Origin: a virus
Length of the DNA stretch: 23,362 nucleotides
Strand: one strand, 5' to 3'
Virus record (IMG/VR): IMGVR_UViG_3300030061_000832
Span: 1-23,362 of that record
Shown here: positions 1-22,031 of the stretch, piece by piece
Numbering within the stretch: position 1 is the stretch's first letter
Layout: the number at the start of each line of letters is the position of its first letter
The notes under the pieces: model-generated
The model's database searches: none
The model's input: the letters and a program-made list of their open reading frames with translations, nothing else
What the model was told of the DNA's origin: nothing
Translations under genes and position numbers: made by a program

Positions 1-230
1 CTTAATATTTTTCTTTTAGGAACATCAGTGTTTATTTCTAATACCACTATATCGTCATCATGCTGACTTGCTTTTAAGGCGGTCTCATAATGTTCAGTGC
101 ACCATATACCTAAATTACCTGATCCTTGACGGTATTTTGCATACCATTGCCGGTCATGGTAACAACAGAACTTATCTCCCTTTATTTGTTCAGTTAAATA
201 TTTTCTTGGTAAACCATGATATAATAACAT
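1..230 (-). CDS. Small phage protein, 5' part only (runs off the left edge); ADP-ribosyltransferase-like pattern, tentative
   Basis: An open frame starts at ATG 230 and stays open to the window edge, giving 76 visible residues. Its ATG overlaps the stop codon of the upstream gene (TAATG), so the two are probably translationally coupled. The protein starts MLLYHGLPRKYL and contains GIWCTEHYETALKAS followed by DDIVVLEI. The order 'LYHG ... I..G ... G(I/V)W.T.....A...A ... VVLE(I/V)' resembles the first strands of ADP-ribosyltransferase-type folds, whose first catalytic residue is the His of YHG. That is a pattern impression only: the later strands and any catalytic Glu lie outside the window. 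It could equally be an unrelated small phage protein. Its existence as a gene is well supported; the function is not. Confidence 0.6.
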   Translation of the reverse strand, partial: MLLYHGLPRKYLTEQIKGDKFCCYHDRQWYAKYRQGSGNLGIWCTEHYETALKASQHDDDIVVLEINTDVPKRKIL

Positions 231-565
231 TATAATACTCCTACTGCTTTGCCAATTAAGGGCATTGTGTCTTCTCTGTCTGCTGTTTCTACTATTTTAA
301 ACTTAGCATCAGCATTTATTAAGTCTGTGTTCTTTTTGATTCTAAACATACCTTCTAAAACAAATATATTATCTTTATAATCATGGTCAAATATAGTTTG
401 CCAATATGCATAGTTGTTGTTAGTATCATCTATGTATGTGTGATACCATTTATAGTTGTCGTGTGGATCTAGCAGTTCTATTTCATTATAGAATCCGCCT
501 GGGATACTGTGACTTGCTCTGCTTGGGTGGACTTTTGCTACCACCATTGTGTTTTTAAAGTTCAT
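230..565 (-). CDS. Hypothetical phage protein, 111 aa, first gene after a late-type promoter
   Basis: Function not recognised. The protein is mixed alpha/beta in appearance and rich in Asp, Asn, Tyr and His (for example HDNYKWYHTYIDD and FDHDYKDN), with no signal peptide or membrane segment. An in-frame TTG at 592 would add nine residues. I prefer ATG 565 because AAAGGTGAG lies at ribosome-binding distance from it, and because TTG 592 would sit almost at the transcript end predicted from the GATAAATA box at 603-610. The leader to ATG 565 would be 32 bases, the same as predicted for the portal gene. It is followed by a coupled gene that leaves the window. It may belong to the late regulon, since it shares the promoter motif, but its role in the virion or cell is unknown. 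Confidence 0.75.
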   Translation of the reverse strand: MNFKNTMVVAKVHPSRASHSIPGGFYNEIELLDPHDNYKWYHTYIDDTNNNYAYWQTIFDHDYKDNIFVLEGMFRIKKNTDLINADAKFKIVETADREDTMPLIGKAVGVL

Positions 566-602
566 ATTCTCACCTTTGTTAGTGTTTGCCAATTACATAT
601 AT

Positions 603-610
603 TATTTATC
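603..610 (-). promoter_or_regulatory. GATAAATA late-type promoter box for the 230-565 gene
   Basis: The minus strand reads GATAAATA here in a non-coding gap. T4-type late promoters (TATAAATA) start transcription about six bases downstream of the box, which would put +1 near 597. That leaves a 32-base leader with an AGGTGAG ribosome binding site before ATG 565. The same octamer precedes two other late genes and an apparent RNA gene. No well-placed -35 and -10 pair of the sigma-70 type was seen. Confidence 0.6.
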
Positions 611-643
611 ATATAACTACAAAATAAGGGTGGAAATTGGGTC

Positions 644-680
644 AAAAAAAAGCCTAATACAGCAATGAATTAGGCTTTTT
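644..680 (-). terminator. Strong intrinsic terminator ending the 3' side of the structured RNA and the late operon
   Basis: AAAAAGCCTAAT (647-658) pairs perfectly with ATTAGGCTTTTT (669-680) across a 10-base loop. On the minus strand the stem is followed by eight T residues, so it is a textbook rho-independent terminator for leftward transcription. The plus-strand reading also has five T residues and may work in reverse. It separates the structured region 681-982 from the promoter at 603-610. Confidence 0.85.
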
Positions 681-871
681 ACTTGAATGTTGTGTTTTAT
701 ACTAGGAGCACCCTTATATAAAACACAGAACTTTCAAAATAATAATTCGGAGTTTAAACAGAATTATTTGAATCTATATAATAGAATTATAGGTGTGTAA
801 GGTATGCCATTGACTTTAAGTGCATATAACCGATTAATTCTGGAGTCATAATGTCTATATGCTAACGTCTC

Positions 872-891
872 AATTACTACAAGTAGTAATT
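872..891. repeat. Perfect 9-2-9 inverted repeat
   Basis: AATTACTAC (872-880) and GTAGTAATT (883-891) are exact reverse complements separated by two bases. As RNA it would be an 8-bp hairpin with a 4-base loop inside the proposed non-coding RNA. As DNA it could be a dyad operator. A second repeat of the same 9-2-9 geometry but a different sequence occurs at 21273-21292. Confidence 0.7.
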
Positions 892-987
892 TATGTTTTG
901 GCAAACATTGGTGAGATACCTTTTAGAAGATTATCATTTGAATGGCAATTCATTTGATAAGCCAATAACATTTGCCTTACACATATA

Positions 988-995
988 TATTTATC
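988..995 (-). promoter_or_regulatory. GATAAATA late-type promoter box for the structured RNA
   Basis: The minus strand reads GATAAATA followed by TATATG, with a predicted +1 near 982. It lies 26 bases beyond the stop codon of the last tail-operon gene (stop at 1021-1023) and faces away from it, towards a region with no protein gene. Its position a few bases before the first long stem of 644-982 is the main reason to propose an independent RNA gene. Confidence 0.55.
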
Positions 996-1020
996 TAAAG
1001 TTGGTGTATTTGGTGGGTTT

Positions 1021-1332
1021 TTATGACTTATTCAGTTCGCTTCTAGCCCAAGTTAAAGCACTAGCACCGCCCCAACCTAAATAGGCTTGTATAGCCGGTG
1101 ATTCTTCTGCACTTAGTCCTTTTGCTTTGGCTCTATCGTAGTTGTCTCTTGCTCTGCTTAGGTAACTGACCATTCTAAGTAGTGTTTGTCTACTAACATT
1201 GTCACCATTTGCAAGTTGATTAGCTCTAGCAAGTCCTACTCTGGTCATAGCACGTCTACTAGGAGGTGCTTTTTCTCTGGCTTCTAAGGCTTTTTTTGCA
1301 TTGTTTTGCACTGACTTTGGAGGTATAGGCAT
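1021..1332 (-). CDS. Small phage protein with a C-terminal 'W-G-G ... WAR' motif, 103 aa, function unknown
   Basis: The start is ATG 1332, which overlaps the stop of the upstream gene as TAATG; an upstream in-frame start at 1404 would lie inside that gene and is less likely. The protein is basic and soluble. Its C-terminal half carries a pattern that I recognise from many phage and prophage proteins: GLARANQLANG, then SRQTLLRMVSYLSRAR, then a short spacer and AYLGWGGASALTWAR. In other phages this module is found alone or at the ends of head-associated proteins, and its biochemical role is not known to me. Here it is the last gene of the late operon, next to a holin-like gene. No catalytic motif is visible. 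Confidence 0.75.
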   Translation of the reverse strand: MPIPPKSVQNNAKKALEAREKAPPSRRAMTRVGLARANQLANGDNVSRQTLLRMVSYLSRARDNYDRAKAKGLSAEESPAIQAYLGWGGASALTWARSELNKS

Positions 1333-1565
1333 TACATAATACCGCTGAATATAGCACCTAAAATAGTTATCAGTGTGCTGAATGTTGCACCTAGTATAAG
1401 CCATATTCTATTATCTAAACGGTCTAAACGTTCAATAAAAAATTGTCTATTATCTTTGACTGCTTCTTTGAGTTCATCAATATCATCTGCCATATGTGTT
1501 AGATGATTATCTTTGATAATCTCAATTTCTTTAGCAAGTTCTTGTGTAGTAACACGTTTAGCCAT
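1332..1565 (-). CDS. Holin- or XhlA-like small membrane protein with N-terminal coiled coil, 77 aa
   Basis: Residues about 8-52 are charged and heptad-like (for example ELKEAVKDNRQFFIERLDRLDNR), consistent with a coiled coil. Residues about 54-76 form one hydrophobic membrane segment ending at the C-terminus. This layout, a soluble helical part ending in 'DR.W' and then a single C-terminal transmembrane helix, is that of the haemolysin XhlA family of phage lysis-associated proteins and of some single-span holins. The position at the end of the late operon fits a role in host membrane lysis. However, no endolysin gene is visible in the window, so the lysis role is an inference. An AGAGAAG ribosome binding site precedes ATG 1565. 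It is followed by a coupled gene (TAATG). Confidence 0.7.
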   Translation of the reverse strand: MAKRVTTQELAKEIEIIKDNHLTHMADDIDELKEAVKDNRQFFIERLDRLDNRIWLILGATFSTLITILGAIFSGIM

Positions 1566-1566
1566 G

Positions 1567-1686
1567 TTACTTCTCTACTACTTGACCTTGTGCATTTATT
1601 TCATGTGTTCCAGCATCTAACTTAGCCTGCAAATCTGTTTTTTGTTGCTCTAGTTCTTCAACTGTTGGAAAATTATGTTCACTCAT
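1567..1686 (-). CDS. Small hypothetical protein, 39 aa
   Basis: The frame from ATG 1686 to TAA 1567-1569 encodes MSEHNFPTVEELEQQKTDL and 20 more residues, ending GQVVEK. Three things support it as a real gene. Its start overlaps the stop of the 152-residue gene by eight bases (ATGAGTGA), its stop lies one base before the ATG of the holin-like gene, and it fills an otherwise empty 113-base slot in a tightly packed operon. The predicted peptide is acidic, helical in its first half, and has no membrane segment. Function is unknown; a small partner of the adjacent coiled-coil membrane protein is possible but is only a guess from position. Confidence 0.6.
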   Translation of the reverse strand: MSEHNFPTVEELEQQKTDLQAKLDAGTHEINAQGQVVEK

Positions 1687-2137
1687 CTTCAAATCCTATT
1701 TTCTTTCTTAAGTCTGTTAGTTGTTGTTTGTCTTGCACTATAACACATGGAGTAGGAGTATTATTTTCCTTCTCATCTGGATGACTCCAAAATGCCGCTA
1801 AATGCAAATACTTACTTTCTATTTTATCTACTATTGATAACAATGTATCAATACTAGTTTGTTCATTGTATTCTAATAACAATGCTTCATGCTTACTAGC
1901 ACAAAATGAGGCTACCCATGTAAGTTCATTACCTGGATCACCTGTTTTAACATGTAAGATTTTATCCTGCATGTAATACTTTTTAGACCAGGGGCATACT
2001 GTGGCAATACTGTCAAAGTATGCAGACCAATCTACTTCTTTTTGGAACCTCTGTTCTTTTTCTTCTTTTTCTTCTTTGTTCCTCTGTTCTTTCCCATTGG
2101 CATAATCTTCTCCTTTAATTGTTGTTGTATCCAACAT
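1679..2137 (-). CDS. Hypothetical protein with Lys/Glu-rich N-terminus, 152 aa
   Basis: I do not recognise the family. Residues about 15-30 are almost entirely Lys, Glu, Gln and Arg, encoded by a short purine repeat on the minus strand (2045-2095), and are probably a helical linker. The remainder looks globular, with several aromatic residues and Cys (for example VCPWSKKYYMQDKILHV and AAFWSHPDEKE). The start ATG 2137 lies 18 bases after the fibre stop codon, with only a weak AAAGAG-type ribosome binding site. It sits directly downstream of the long tail fibre gene, a place often used for fibre chaperones or small receptor-binding accessories, but nothing in the sequence confirms this. Confidence 0.7.
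   Translation of the reverse strand: MLDTTTIKGEDYANGKEQRNKEEKEEKEQRFQKEVDWSAYFDSIATVCPWSKKYYMQDKILHVKTGDPGNELTWVASFCASKHEALLLEYNEQTSIDTLLSIVDKIESKYLHLAAFWSHPDEKENNTPTPCVIVQDKQQLTDLRKKIGFEDE
2045..2095. repeat. Short purine/pyrimidine slippage-prone repeat inside a gene
   Basis: The minus strand carries repeated 9-base units of the type AAAGAAGAA, flanked by two copies of AAAGAACAGAGG. They encode KEQR, KEE, KEE, KEQR in the 152-residue protein. Gain or loss of a 9-base unit would keep the frame, so length variation among relatives is to be expected. Confidence 0.6.
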
Positions 2138-2155
2138 CGTTACTCTTTAAATTTA

Positions 2156-5100
2156 TTACATTGCACTTTGCGTTATTTTCTGCCAAGCACTACCATTGTA
2201 AACACACACTTGGTTGAGTGTTGTATTAAATACCATATCACCTGCTAACGGTCCACTTAGTGCATTTATTTGTGTAGTGTTTAAGTTTTGTAAACGTAAA
2301 CTTGAACTAAATTCTGTTCTAGCGGCTGAAAGTTCTACTTTATCACTGCTATTAGTGTGATCTCTTAATATTAAGTTACCACTACTTTGTTCGTTAGTAA
2401 TATCCCATTGTGCTTTTGCAGAACTGTTTGCTTCATGTGTGCTTATTCTTATTGTAGCATTACCTTTAGAATCATAGTTAAAACCACTTGTATTATCAAA
2501 TGTTTGTCCTGATTTAGGTTGTATTTCTACTAGTGTTCCTGCTTTACTGCTTAAATATCCAGCACCTAAGAATGAGTGGAATTCATGCAATTCATCTGGG
2601 AACCTATTCTGGGTATATGTAGCATTACCTGTTGACCCGTCTGCACCATAGTCTCTTTGTGGTCTTAAACTAACTGTGCCATCTGGTTTTGCGGCAATAA
2701 TAGTATTACCTGCCTGGTTTGCAATAAATGTGCTTGGAATACCACCACTTGATACGTTTGCACCATTTCTATAACTTGTTTTGTGTGTATTAGTAATATA
2801 CAAGTCTGCACTAGCAACATTGTCTGTTGTTGCTCTGTCTTTTGCAGTTTGAACTATTATACCACTAGGCGCATAGAATGGATCTACAGCAGTTAAGTCA
2901 GCACTTCTACCACTAAAGTTTATTTTACCAATTGTGACATTACTGCCTACTGCTAAACTTGTTGAACTTCTGTTTGAACTTTTACCACCTATTGCCCTAA
3001 AGTCAATAGTAGGTGAGTTAAGTTGTCTTGCATCACTTATATTATTACCACTTTGTCCTAAGAATGTTGTCCATTTAGGAAGAGCATTACCATCTGCGGC
3101 AGATAAAGCAATAAAGTTATTGTCTTGATAGTTATAAAAGTTAAATTTATTCTGTGGAGCATTATCAACAGTATAAGTTGTTTCTCCATCTAATTCTGAT
3201 GCTACACCCTGCAAACTTGCTACTGCAGGTTGTAATACTTCTGTTCCTGATGTTGTAACGTCTGGTGTTAAACTGTTACCAATAAGTAAACTACCGTCTG
3301 AGAGTTTAAATCCACTACCTGATTCACTACTTAATTTTGGTATGTTACGCATATTAACATTTGCTAAGTTAACTGTTGAGGCACCACCACTAGTATTATA
3401 AGGAATTCTATCTAATGTTACATTAGATAATGTTTGTGGTAAATCATATTCACTGTATCTAGGTCTTGTTCCTGCATAAGGTATTTGTGTATTTGCAGTA
3501 TCAGTATCAACTGACATCCCAATATTTTGTGTGCTACTAAACAAGTTAGGAACTAACAATGCACTAAATCCACTACCACCGGCGGCTACAGCACTTGTAA
3601 AGTTTTCACTAAATGTAGCAACGTTACCACTTATGCTTGTCATATGTGCTGTTTTTGGTAAATGACCTGTTTCACTAGCAGATGCTAACACATACAAAGT
3701 CCAACCTTTTGCATTTGCACCAGCACCACCTGATCCTGTTGCGTTAGTAAGGGCCGCTTCTGCTGTTGCACCTAAACCAAAACTGCTTGTAAATGCTGTT
3801 GCACTAGTTTGTCTACCTAAAAATACAGTGGTTCCAAAAGCACCACCAAATAATGGTGCAAATGTTAATTCATTACTACCACTACTTGCACTAACTTGAC
3901 ACATTAATGATTTGAAACCTACGTTGTCAAAACTTGTATGTGTATCTGCTTCTTTTACACCATAACCACTTGTGTCTACATCTAATATTCTACTTCCGCC
4001 TGTTCCTGCTACAAGTTCTTTTTCTAACCTTATTCTGCCTAAATAATTTAAATCAGCATTTGCGGCATTTGTGCCTGCTCTTATTCTAACGTTTGGTGCA
4101 TCTGTTCCATATGCTAATATTCTTGAAACGCCCATTTGTGTTGTTGCTTGAACTATGTTTGCATTTATGTCACCACTTGGTTTCAATGAAATGTTTGAAT
4201 CACTGCCCAAACCTAACACTATATTTGCTGTAGAAGTAATATTTCCTTGTGTGCTTTCCAGAGTGTCAATATCCATGTTTACAAATTTTGCATTTGCATT
4301 TGATGTTAATATACCTGTTAAAGTTCCACCACCAGCATTTATATTTGCTGTTGTTGTTATGTTACTTGTAGAATCTATTGCACCTCTATGTGTGCCCAAT
4401 ATGTTACCACCACTTACGTTTGCTGTTGTTGTTATATTACTTGTAGAATCTATTGCACCTCTATGTGTGCCTAATATATTACCACCACTTATGTTTGCTG
4501 TTGTTGTTATATTACTATCAGAACTAATTGCTGTTGTGATGTTATCTAAACTGTCTACAAATGCCGCATTTGCTCTAGCATTTGTAAAATATAAATTTGT
4601 GCCTTCTGCCAAATCGGCTGTGTCTAAACCTGCTAGACTGCTTGGTGAACCTGTAACATTACCTGTAATGTTACCTATAAATGTTCCTAACACATTGCCT
4701 GCACTAATGTTAGCAGTAGTTGTAATATTAGAAGTTGTGTTAACTTCTCCTTTTACAATACCTAAAACATTTCCACCACTAATATTTGCTGTTGTTGTAA
4801 TATTACTTGTAGAATCTATTGCACCTCTTACTGTGCCTAATATATTACCACCACTTATGTTTGCAGTAGTTGTAATATTGCCTGTTAAATTTGTTAAAGC
4901 ACCAGTGTAAGCCGCTATGGCTGTATTTGCTCTAGCAGTTGTATAGTATAAATTTGTGCCTTCTGCTAGGTCACTAGTGCTAGCCGCTATTTTATATTCT
5001 GTGCTACCATCATTACTAAATTTCCAAGCATCTCCAGTTTCATCCCATTTGACGTAAGTGTTTGAACTTGAACCTCTGTCAACAAATAGTTGACTGTTTG

Positions 5101-7427: not shown

Positions 7428-7838
7428 CTAAGAAGGCTTTGTGGGCCATGTTAGACCCTCTGCTGTTGCTAAATTGTCATCTAAACCATTAACAAAATCT
7501 CTTAACTGTTGTCTGTATGTTTGCCATTCTGCTTTTTTACTATCACTTAATGGGCTATCAACACCCACAGTCCAATCACAGTCTTTTAGATATGCATTTC
7601 TTAATTCTCTACAAGTTTGTTTTGCTGACATTTTAAACACATTGTCTGTGCTACTGACTATAACTGGAGGATCTTGGCTTATATCTACTTTGTTTGCATT
7701 TACATCATCAATATAACCTTCTATGTAAGCCATATTAGTATTTGAACTGCATGTGTTGTTTGCTTGGTCTTGTGTTACAGTTCTTTGCATTTCTATTTTG
7801 CCAGTGTCTGTTTTATAAAAAACGTAACTTGTTCTCAT
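7428..7838 (-). CDS. Tail fibre assembly-like (chaperone-type) protein, 136 aa
   Basis: The C-terminal half has the pattern RELRNAYLKDCDWTVG, DSPLSDSKKAEW, YRQQLRD (about residues 78-114). This is typical of a domain in many phage tail fibre assembly and tail assembly chaperone-like proteins: 'R..R...L..(S/C)DWT...D.PL....K..W..YRQ.LRD'. The N-terminal part (TGKIEMQRT) is not diagnostic. Its location between the tail-tip protein and the fibre genes fits a helper for fibre folding or attachment, although some relatives are virion components. AGGATATACAG before ATG 7838 serves as ribosome binding site. The domain is recognised with fair confidence; the precise function is inferred. Confidence 0.75.
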   Translation of the reverse strand: MRTSYVFYKTDTGKIEMQRTVTQDQANNTCSSNTNMAYIEGYIDDVNANKVDISQDPPVIVSSTDNVFKMSAKQTCRELRNAYLKDCDWTVGVDSPLSDSKKAEWQTYRQQLRDFVNGLDDNLATAEGLTWPTKPS

Positions 7839-11331: not shown

Positions 11332-12021
11332 CTACATGTGGCCTATAAATCCAAAACCTCCGAATCCGCCACCACCGAATCCGCCGAATCCGCCGTCGCC
11401 ATAGCCACCACCGTAGCCACCGCCTGCTCCTGCGCCTCTGTTATATTCTTTACCAAAGTCAAATTGAACATTATGTAAGTCACTTACTCTGTTAAATGTA
11501 TTATCACTTGCAAAATATTTCTGTCTATCTGTTAAGTTTGTTCTTTGTCCTGCAACTTTGTTTTCTAAAATAGTGTTTATACTTGCACATGTTACAGTTA
11601 CACTATTGGTGTTTTCACCTCTAAGAATGTTTGTATTTTCTGCAATACTAAAGTTTGTTATTATACCGTTATAACGTTGAAATATGTTTGCACTATCAAC
11701 AGTCATATCATCATTAAAAAATGCTCTGTGTATTTTTACAACACCACCTTTAATCTTAGAGCTCAATATCAAACTCATATAATCTTGGTCACTTGGTATA
11801 CCACTTAAACTTAAATTGATATCACCATTAGTTGCTTTGATATCTTCTGCTATTTCACTTACACCTAGGAAACTACCTAGTTCTGTGTAATCATTGCCAT
11901 CATATGTGATTGTTTTATATGCACCACTTAGATAATAAGTTGTGCTACCTATAGTAAGGTCAACCATCATACAATGTTGTATATGTGTTTTATCTGTTAC
12001 TGGTGCTATTGTTGTTGCCAT
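11332..12021 (-). CDS. Distal tail / baseplate-hub protein of the DUF2163-like type with a Gly-rich tail, 229 aa
   Basis: The body has beta-rich segments typical of the distal tail protein that follows the tape measure in GTA-like and marine siphophages: TTYYLSGAYKTITYDGNDYT near the N-terminus and AGQRTNLTDRQKYFASDNTF followed by VQFDFGK near residues 155-190. Relatives in the DUF2163/BR0599-like families end soon after this last segment. Here residues 195-229 add a tail made almost only of Gly, Phe and Tyr (for example FGGFGGGGFGGFGFIGHM). That extension is encoded by locally GC-richer DNA (about 11335-11440). Its start ATG shares a base with the stop of the upstream gene (TAATG). I am confident of a tail role and less so of the exact homologue. 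Confidence 0.7.
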   Translation of the reverse strand: MATTIAPVTDKTHIQHCMMVDLTIGSTTYYLSGAYKTITYDGNDYTELGSFLGVSEIAEDIKATNGDINLSLSGIPSDQDYMSLILSSKIKGGVVKIHRAFFNDDMTVDSANIFQRYNGIITNFSIAENTNILRGENTNSVTVTCASINTILENKVAGQRTNLTDRQKYFASDNTFNRVSDLHNVQFDFGKEYNRGAGAGGGYGGGYGDGGFGGFGGGGFGGFGFIGHM

Positions 12022-21007: not shown

Positions 21008-21044
21008 TAGTTCTCCATTTTTTGTAAAATATATTTTATGCAAC

Positions 21045-21052
21045 TATTTATC
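21045..21052 (-). promoter_or_regulatory. GATAAATA late-type promoter box for the head operon
   Basis: The minus strand reads GATAAATA followed by GTTGCA, with predicted +1 near 21039 and a 32-base leader to the portal GTG. This leader length equals that predicted for the gene at 230-565. It would drive portal, scaffold, capsid and following genes. Confidence 0.6.
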
Positions 21053-21128
21053 AATATCCAGTAATATAGACGTATTTCGTTGGCGTTTTGTAAATAATAT
21101 AGCAAGAAGACACGCATAGTATTTTTGT

Positions 21129-21165
21129 AAAGCCTAGTTATTCCAATATTGCTAGGCTTTTTTTT
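21129..21165 (+). terminator. Intrinsic terminator facing right, upstream of the head operon
   Basis: AAAGCCTAG (21129-21137) pairs with CTAGGCTTT (21152-21160), followed by more T residues to 21165 on the plus strand. The minus-strand reading has only three T residues, so it points rightwards. No plus-strand gene is present to its left, so it would stop an antisense or small plus-strand transcript. Confidence 0.65.
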
Positions 21166-21202
21166 GGCTTGTTATAAGTAATAGTGTTAATGTTTCGGCG
21201 CG

Positions 21203-21292
21203 ATATGTTTTACATATTTAGGGCTTGTCCGCAAACTGGAGAAATAAACAAAAGTAATATGTTTCCAGTTTGGTTTACAGTTTACTGTAAAC
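21203..21292. repeat. Cluster of three adjacent inverted repeats
   Basis: ATATGT/ACATAT (21203-21208 with 21212-21217), CAAACTGGA/TCCAGTTTG (21232-21240 with 21264-21272) and GTTTACAGT/ACTGTAAAC (21273-21281 with 21284-21292) are exact. The last two are directly abutting. The final repeat has 9-2-9 geometry and could be an operator-type dyad. No gene lies here. Confidence 0.7.
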
Positions 21293-21327
21293 ATCTTTCC
21301 TACAACGATACAAAAACAAAAATTAAA

Positions 21328-21367
21328 AACTTCAGTATTTAGGACTATTTACTGGAGTTTTTTTTTG
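21328..21367. terminator. Bidirectional terminator in the structured gap
   Basis: AACTTCAGTA (21328-21337) pairs with TACTGGAGTT (21350-21359), 10 bp with one G-U. On the plus strand it is followed by a run of T residues to 21366. On the minus strand it is followed by TTTTTAATTTTTG. Both directions have good T-tracts. Confidence 0.75.
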
Positions 21368-21399
21368 ACTCAATATTTGTTTTATCTTAGACATATATA

Positions 21400-21407
21400 G
21401 ATAAATA
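21400..21407 (+). promoter_or_regulatory. Plus-strand GATAAATA box (possible rightward late-type promoter)
   Basis: The plus strand reads ATATATA then GATAAATA then TTTACTGT. With T4-like spacing +1 would be near 21413, and the transcript would run into the structured elements between 21447 and 21837, antisense to the minus-strand genes. The copy could be fortuitous in such AT-rich DNA, and no protein gene follows it. Confidence 0.35.
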
Positions 21408-21446
21408 TTTACTGTAACAATAGAGTTTAACTTAATTTTAAAAAGA

Positions 21447-21530
21447 ATTATGTGTGTATTGCTCTAGCAGATAGGTTTCTGCATAGTTACATATAATAAA
21501 ATAAAAAACAGGGCAGATAATAATATTATC
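21447..21530. other. Two hairpins in the structured gap
   Basis: GCAGA/TCTGC (21467-21471 with 21478-21482) is enclosed by ATTATGTGT/ACATATAAT (21447-21455 with 21489-21497, one mismatch). A separate perfect dyad, GATAATA/TATTATC (21516-21522 with 21524-21530), follows. They add to a chain of foldable segments from 21203 to 21837. Confidence 0.5.
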
Positions 21531-21555
21531 GACCAATTTTAATTTTAAATCTTTT

Positions 21556-21656
21556 AAAAGGGTTACTGGGTAACATATCCTCCCGGATATAAACTTAAAT
21601 ATTTAACAGAGGACCTGTTGAATAGTTAGTGTGTTATAAGGCTTAGTAACCCTTTT
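21556..21656. ncRNA. Candidate structured RNA element closed by a perfect 12-bp stem
   Basis: AAAAGGGTTACT (21556-21567) is the exact reverse complement of AGTAACCCTTTT (21645-21656). Inside are a perfect ATATCC/GGATAT hairpin (21575-21580 with 21585-21590), whose loop on the minus strand is GGGA, a GNRA tetraloop, and AACAG/CTGTT (21605-21609 with 21615-21619). The minus strand is therefore slightly favoured, but no promoter was found for it there; the plus-strand box at 21400 would give the opposite strand. A local hairpin GTTAC/GTAAC (21562-21566 with 21570-21574) competes with the closing stem. No tRNA features (T-loop, CCA, anticodon arm) are present. Confidence 0.5.
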
Positions 21657-21726
21657 ATTTTACCTATACTAAACTACCAACCATATCAAGATAATTGCTT
21701 AGATGAAGTCTGTGAGGGTCAAAAGA

Positions 21727-21772
21727 AAGCCCAAACACGATTAAACTATGAAACTCGCAGGTGTTTGGGCTT
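21727..21772 (-). terminator. Probable terminator of the terminase operon
   Basis: AAGCCCAAACAC (21727-21738) pairs exactly with GTGTTTGGGCTT (21761-21772) across a 22-base loop. On the minus strand it is followed by TCTTTTG. It lies about 70 bases after the last small gene, consistent with an end to transcripts arriving from the terminase side. The long loop and interrupted T-tract make it less typical. Confidence 0.6.
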
Positions 21773-21773
21773 A

Positions 21774-21837
21774 TTGCACACTTATGAGTATCCGTCGATA
21801 CTCTTTACTACTTACCACAGCAATCACCTGTGTGCAA
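21774..21837 (-). ncRNA. Candidate three-way-junction RNA in the 3' UTR of the terminase operon
   Basis: TTGCA (21774-21778) and TGCAA (21833-21837) close a region holding GAGTATC/GATACTC (21786-21792 with 21797-21803, 4-base loop) and CACAG/CTGTG (21816-21820 with 21828-21832). Without the second hairpin the closing stem extends to 8 bp (TTGCACAC/GTGTGCAA). It directly follows the stop of the 62-residue gene and directly precedes the probable terminator, a common layout for small RNAs cut from mRNA 3' ends. It was checked for hammerhead and tRNA signatures and has neither. Confidence 0.45.
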
Positions 21838-21842
21838 CTGTT

Positions 21843-22031
21843 TTATTTATGTTTTTGGTTATACCACTCTGTGTAAGCACGGTCAACATAACGTTTTAGT
21901 ATTTCTCTGTCTGTGCATTCGAATATATCAAACAGCAAAGGCTTAAACATTTCATAAGGTGGGTTTTCATACTTGCCTTGTCTTACACCATATGGCTTTA
22001 GTTCCTCTAAGGAAATAATGGACTTCTTCAC
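21843..22031 (-). CDS. Small hypothetical protein, 62 aa
   Basis: It starts at GTG 22031, which overlaps the stop of the upstream gene (TAGTG), and encodes MKKSIISLEELKPYGVRQGK, then PPYEMFKPLLFDIFECTDRE and ends WYNQKHK. There is no membrane segment or known motif. The ribosome binding site is poor, so translation probably depends on coupling to the gene upstream. It is the last gene before the 0.8-kb non-coding gap. Function is unknown. Confidence 0.6.
   Translation of the reverse strand: MKKSIISLEELKPYGVRQGKYENPPYEMFKPLLFDIFECTDREILKRYVDRAYTEWYNQKHK

Follow-up and report, generated by a model that had tools for sequence, protein, structure and literature searches.

Among the virion genes of an uncultured phage lies a stretch of some 340 nucleotides that seems to encode no protein, which raises the question of whether it specifies an RNA and, if so, what that RNA might act upon. 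The DNA analysed here (the window) is the 23,362-base virus record IMGVR_UViG_3300030061_000832, which belongs to a tailed phage with its major genes all on the minus strand and with recognisable portal, major head and tape measure proteins; the nearest named relatives of the portal, at about 25% identity, are from Pelagibacter phages and one other Proteobacteria phage. The window contains no tRNA genes, and a 152-aa neighbour protein found no relative when compared with bacterial and archaeal genomes. The region in question sits within the virion gene block, between a gene for a 127-aa protein (1021-1404) and a gene at 230-592, and a sequence-only reading had proposed that it is a stand-alone, late-expressed structured RNA gene with its own promoter, folded body and terminator.

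An RNA gene within the virion gene block

No long reading frame was found between the two flanking genes, and the short open frames within the 340-nt RNA have no counterparts in relatives, so that the gap is indeed without an evident protein-coding gene. On the minus strand, the promoter box noted earlier is present at 988-995 and reads GATAAATA; the 5' end of the RNA gene (644-983) is placed at about 983/982 and its 3' end after the T run at 644, where an intrinsic terminator, a hairpin followed by eight T residues, occupies 644-680. Weak Rfam matches to the Thr and Phe leaders at 643-756 correspond to this terminator, lie far below threshold and were rejected. Three further hairpins of the earlier reading are likewise present in the sequence and form in the predicted fold, namely a perfect hairpin, AUUACUAC-UUGU-AGUAAU, at 872-891 and two that lie outside the long-range helix described below, at 741-768 (loop ...AAACUCC, with its CUCC core within 746-756) and at 691-727 (loop GGUGCUCCUA, 703-712). 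The predicted fold also contains a GAAU-UGCC-AUUC hairpin at 940-951 whose UGCC loop is found in relatives too, and a loop with a CUCC core (AUGACUCCAG, 840-849) that recurs in them. Folding of 982-644 yields -89.8 kcal/mol, where dinucleotide shuffles average -57 (sd 4.9), which corresponds to z = -6.7; none of 100 shuffles folds as well.

Neither at relaxed nor at gathering thresholds did Rfam provide a credible family match for the RNA, a nucleotide search against annotated phages returned nothing, and a literature search of partial coverage found no description of it; within these limits, the structured RNA family appears to be previously undescribed. The GATAAATA box may be of the T4 late type, in which a gp55-type factor recognises a late box that lacks a -35 element (T4 late promoters are described in PMC2988020); it occurs five times in the window, where 1.7 copies are expected, with four of the five copies on the coding strand in gaps preceding genes or the RNA. 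One of these boxes, at 603..610 (minus strand), belongs to the next transcript, whose open frame at 230-592 contains an ORF of 111 aa from AUG (230-565) with the ribosome-binding region and start at 563-577 (AAAGGUGAGAAUAUG). Late expression together with the virion genes, as the sequence-only reading had it, is plausible in that the same box precedes other genes of the block, but it remains an inference.

Relatives and the conserved P1 helix

Searching IMG/VR with the 127-aa upstream protein identified 61 loci, and in the 11 most similar contigs the same succession was found, a box followed 2-5 nt later by a helix, several hairpins and a terminator, although the sequences themselves often cannot be aligned. 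Loci at a greater distance (L014 to L022) lack this layout after the 127-aa gene. Further searches added G012, G013, G014, G015, G025, L392, G016 and G017, as well as G018-G020, G021, G026, L314, L316, L325, L326 and L451, and the RNA gene is now recognised in at least 25 contigs of mostly marine, uncultured, small phages, with RNA lengths of about 70-340 nt, the short versions of G016 and G017 measuring about 65-75 nt. Its position is not fixed: in G021 the unit precedes the terminase gene, in G018-G020 a second unit stands in tandem behind the first RNA, and in four contigs (G014, G015, G025 and L392) the RNA is encoded on the strand opposite its neighbours, which makes it an independent unit and not merely a leader of the next gene. 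The tandem box-plus-structure unit was noted in L260 (~11231) and L263 (~12500), corresponding to G018 and G019, as UGUAGCARAACUC../..UUUUGCUACA. Scanning for the promoter and helix by sequence pattern alone produced many false matches; ten loci (L064, L069, L073, L079, L087, L127, L132, L137, L167 and L174) were discarded because they were coding or had the wrong layout, and the L450 candidate was dismissed as chance.

The core of the fold is a long-range helix, here called P1, which the sequence-only reading did not notice. Its 5' arm (UGUGUAAGG, 975-983) begins 4 nt after the box in the window, and 2-5 nt after it in nearly all relatives, and pairs with the 3' arm (CCUUACACA, 794-802) to close a multi-hairpin junction. 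The long stem proposed earlier (900-905/971-976) remains possible as an alternative pairing, in which GGCAAA of the 5' segment binds the UUUGCC loop, but it is absent from the minimum-energy fold and is not what relatives conserve. Covariation was measured on P1 only, since the full-length RNAs align poorly with one another (41% column identity). Across 16 distinct P1 sequences, 99.3% of the cells are paired and two-sided changes occur in seven of nine pairs; double-changed cells number 43, compared with 10.2 (sd 2.9) in shuffles, and sliding one strand abolishes the signal.

As the P1 arms were read from folds and aligned by hand at the promoter-proximal end, this analysis partly presupposes pairing, and a separate shuffle test was therefore made on 12 members chosen by gene order alone and not by the helix: shuffled sequence gives an equally good P1 in at most 2% of cases for each of them and in none of 300 for seven. 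In the close relatives G014, G025 and L392 the inner half of P1 differs while pairing is kept, and in 12 relatives the inner regions reach folding z-scores of -3.1 to -6.7. Folding statistics, the layout in at least 25 contigs, the two-sided P1 changes and the opposite-strand copies together support a stand-alone RNA gene at 983-644 on the minus strand, with promoter box, folded body and terminator; its structure is conserved and the gene is independent of its neighbours, and its transcription is inferred, there being no expression data.

Complementarity between loops and the neighbouring leader

Two hairpin-loop cores recur among the RNAs, UUGCC(A) and CUCC, both predicted to be unpaired, and such loops show complementarity, over a short 7-11 bp, to the leader of the late transcript that follows. 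In the window there is a single strong site, the loop UGUUUGCCAA (898-907), whose GCC core is predicted unpaired with a probability of about 1.0, facing UUGGCAAACA (583-592, minus strand), a site located 18-27 nt ahead of the next gene's AUG, beside the ribosome-binding region and upstream of the Shine-Dalgarno sequence rather than on it. The target word occurs once more in the window, as TGGCAAACA at 7518-7526 (minus strand), inside the reading frame 7428-7838. The loop and leader words differ between phages on both sides, as in UGUUUGCC/GGCAAACA: UAUUUGCCUAU faces AUAGGCAAAUA in G006, UGUUUUGCCA faces UGGCAAAACA in G009, UGUUGCC faces GGCAACA in G010 and G011, UUGCCAUUA faces UAAUGGCAA in G008, L326 and L451, and UGAGCUCC(A) faces (U)GGAGCUCA in G005, G007, G008, G012, G013, L314 and L325. 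The matched site is on or adjoins the Shine-Dalgarno sequence or start in G002, where the paired stretch spans from GAGG to the start codon, in G012 and G013, where GGAGCUC is itself the Shine-Dalgarno sequence of the next gene, and in G010, where AAGGAGAAU at the Shine-Dalgarno sequence faces a further loop, AUUCUCCUU. In the leaders of L275/L276 (G008), L314, L326 and L451, a conserved AUGGCAAAUACAUAA overlaps the antisense site and could be a four-codon frame (MANT).

The strength of this complementarity was assessed by comparing the best uninterrupted helix between the RNA and the first 70 nt of the leader with the best helix in every 70-nt segment from the same contig, scored by stacking energy with a genome-wide background; scoring by longest common substring was dropped as too noisy in AT-rich sequence. 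In all 13 phages with a readable next late transcript the own-leader helix ranks in the best 0.2-10%, and below 2.5% in ten of them (Fisher combination 1e-12, or 4e-11 for eleven hand-chosen representatives). Twelve of these phages gave a median p of 0.011 for the own leader, against 0.38 when other late leaders were used, 0.69 with the own leader reversed and 0.48 with its reverse complement. Seven held-out contigs gave a Fisher p of 2.5e-4, driven by L314, L325, L326 and L316, with no leader signal in L310, L319 and L321, where the RNAs are poorly defined. Cognate pairs of RNA and leader exceed non-cognate ones in a permutation test using a crude score (p 0.02), and the opposite-strand group gave only weak values (p 0.04 and 0.07). 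The p-values of the discovery set are optimistic, since the match was first noticed there and gave rise to the hypothesis, and since the phages are related; the Fisher combinations ignore this relatedness, and combined p-values are only indicative. The complementary cores have a mean unpaired probability of 0.89, compared with about 0.36 for the whole RNA, and are thus displayed in the predicted structures.

Could the neighbouring message be just one of many targets? The CUCC loops might mimic the 3' end of 16S rRNA and bind GGAG-containing messages of phage and host broadly, in the manner of multi-loop bacterial sRNAs such as AbcR, CcsR/'cuckoo' and RNAIII, whose C-rich loops are complementary to Shine-Dalgarno sequences. 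CUCC is present in nearly all members while its flanks vary (GACUCC, GAGCUCC, GGCCUCC, GGUCUCC), and the G026 loop UUGGUCUCC fits three GGAGACC Shine-Dalgarno sites, located on the other strand and over 1 kb distant, so that any pairing there could only be in trans. However, in most genomes other Shine-Dalgarno sites rarely match over 7 nt or more, a general model of widespread Shine-Dalgarno targets did not hold when tested, and the strongest, co-changing matches are those to the next leader, often through UUGCC rather than CUCC. We regard a broad anti-Shine-Dalgarno role as unlikely, though worth keeping in mind. The bacterial RNAs, compared by sequence through Rfam only, differ in being chromosomal, and the loops described here match the leader of one neighbouring phage transcript.

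Less probable still is a late RNA with a structural or protein-binding role (as packaging RNA, virion component or protein decoy), in which the loops would contact a protein or one another. The late-type box, the elaborate fold and the position in the virion block would suit such a role, and self-complementary GAGCUC loops could form RNA dimers; yet the palindromic loop is missing in many members, and loop sequences, length and hairpin number change fast where a fixed protein partner would resist change. Complementarity to the leader is also left unexplained, and the evidence favours pairing with the neighbouring late transcript over the packaging-, host- or lysis-related function at first guessed. 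That the RNA is instead a cis-acting leader or attenuator, with a read-through molecule carrying both RNA and leader and pairing internally, would fit its place beside the next gene in the same orientation in most members, but a strong terminator and a second promoter intervene and opposite-strand copies exist, leaving this very improbable. Inverted protein-binding sites in DNA near promoters, which the shortness of the motifs and their spacing of 300-450 bp at most would allow, can scarcely be credited, as both copies change together between phages with the RNA hairpin context preserved.

A putative antisense RNA and its wider context

What the comparisons favour, and what we hold to be rather likely in the absence of expression data, is a stand-alone late antisense RNA whose loops pair in trans with the neighbouring late leader, most likely repressing or delaying translation. 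The RNA gene would fire from its T4-type late box, both its transcription and its timing being inferred, and the transcript would fold at once into the closed P1 helix, with its 5' end sealed in a stem and with several loops, built around UUGCC and CUCC, exposed on its hairpins. These loops may then pair in trans with the neighbouring late leader, at the Shine-Dalgarno sequence or start or just upstream of it, a duplex likewise inferred; in some phages they could also pair with other messages, as at the three sites of G026. The likeliest effect would be lower or later translation of a message switched on simultaneously, although the sign of the effect is itself inferred. As the loops are complementary to the start of that messenger, the RNA probably controls the timing of its translation. 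The next gene does not encode the same protein in every phage, which points to the leader, and not the function of the gene, as the common target; no tested next gene has a Pfam match at gathering score, and in the PHROG database there is only a weak match to a family of unknown function. The assignment of the RNA as regulator and of the next transcript as target is likewise provisional.

Among the papers searched, the closest described system appears to be the c4 RNA of phages P1 and P7, in which complementary sequences in loops target the ribosome-binding region of the ant mRNA (PMC12197685). Both are structured phage RNAs with loops complementary to the ribosome-binding region of a phage message, a feature supported here by the controls and the predicted exposure, with the window site lying 18-27 nt upstream of the AUG. 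The new RNA differs in having its own promoter and terminator, with a late-type box and a place in the virion-gene block, in its P1-closed multi-hairpin junction, and in the lack of any antirepressor link seen or demonstrated. The c4 model (RF01695) did not match window positions 1-3000 at E up to 5, nor was there a c4 match at gathering score in the window or in seven relatives. The sar RNA of P22, likewise a small phage RNA, prevents translation of ant mRNA by pairing with it (PMC12197685), but it measures 68-69 nt, whereas the RNA described here is a multi-loop molecule of 70-340 nt, apparently late. GOLLD and ROOL, which are phage-borne structured RNAs as well (PMC12286853), are much larger, often lie near tRNA islands and have Rfam models, none of which matched, so that identity with them is excluded. 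In our contigs a tRNA-Asn gene was observed only in L279 (G012; 11528-11603) and in no other contig scanned. The manA, wcaG and PhotoRC-II motifs share with the new RNA their occurrence in marine phages, being found in cyanophages near metabolic or photosynthesis genes (PMC2864571); their Rfam models did not match it either. Our best reading is thus of a fast-evolving phage antisense RNA that may resemble c4 in its working without being related to it, and that would mask or border ribosome-binding regions.

The family adds to abundant uncultured phages an undescribed structured RNA with a testable mechanism, for which the natural co-variation of loop and leader supplies both cognate and non-cognate pairs. 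Regulatory phage RNAs are mostly known from lysogeny control in temperate enterobacterial phages, and a conserved antisense RNA at late-type promoters of small, mostly marine phages would mean RNA control of the late programme. It is conceivable, though we think it improbable, that matching loops and leaders act as a recognition code which diverges quickly, each phage lineage having a pair of its own. In this reading, which concerns small phages (~28-29 kb) with several such RNA genes, the late RNA of a resident phage could shut off the late transcript of a superinfecting phage that shares its code but leave other phages untouched, much as c4 does in heteroimmunity. A genome of about 28-29 kb is suggested by contigs of 28.8-29.1 kb together with the 30115-base contig G030, which carries the same gene at both ends (296-598 and 28958-29260), about 28.7 kb apart.

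Other RNA-like units were observed in these phages. A second unit of the same design lies at 21729-21851 (minus strand) of the window, with a CATAAATA box, a helix GUUGCACAC/GUGUGCAAU and a terminator AAGCCCAAACACC..GGUGUUUGGGC (z -5.3 for the unit); corresponding units whose helix arms have changed occur in G002 (11800), G008 (16428) and G012 (8519). A third closed helix, AAAAGGGUUACU/AGUAACCCUUUU, which encloses 100 nt, occurs at 21545-21665 (minus strand) in the non-coding stretch 21044-21842, with a z of only -2.3. Finally, an element AUGGCA..ACAGAACCCU..ACACAUAAGG..CGGGCCAG recurs behind a late-type box in L277 (1917-2040), L273 (9805-9930), G014, G018, G026 and G028; in some phages it contains in-frame stops, and it is possibly another structured RNA.
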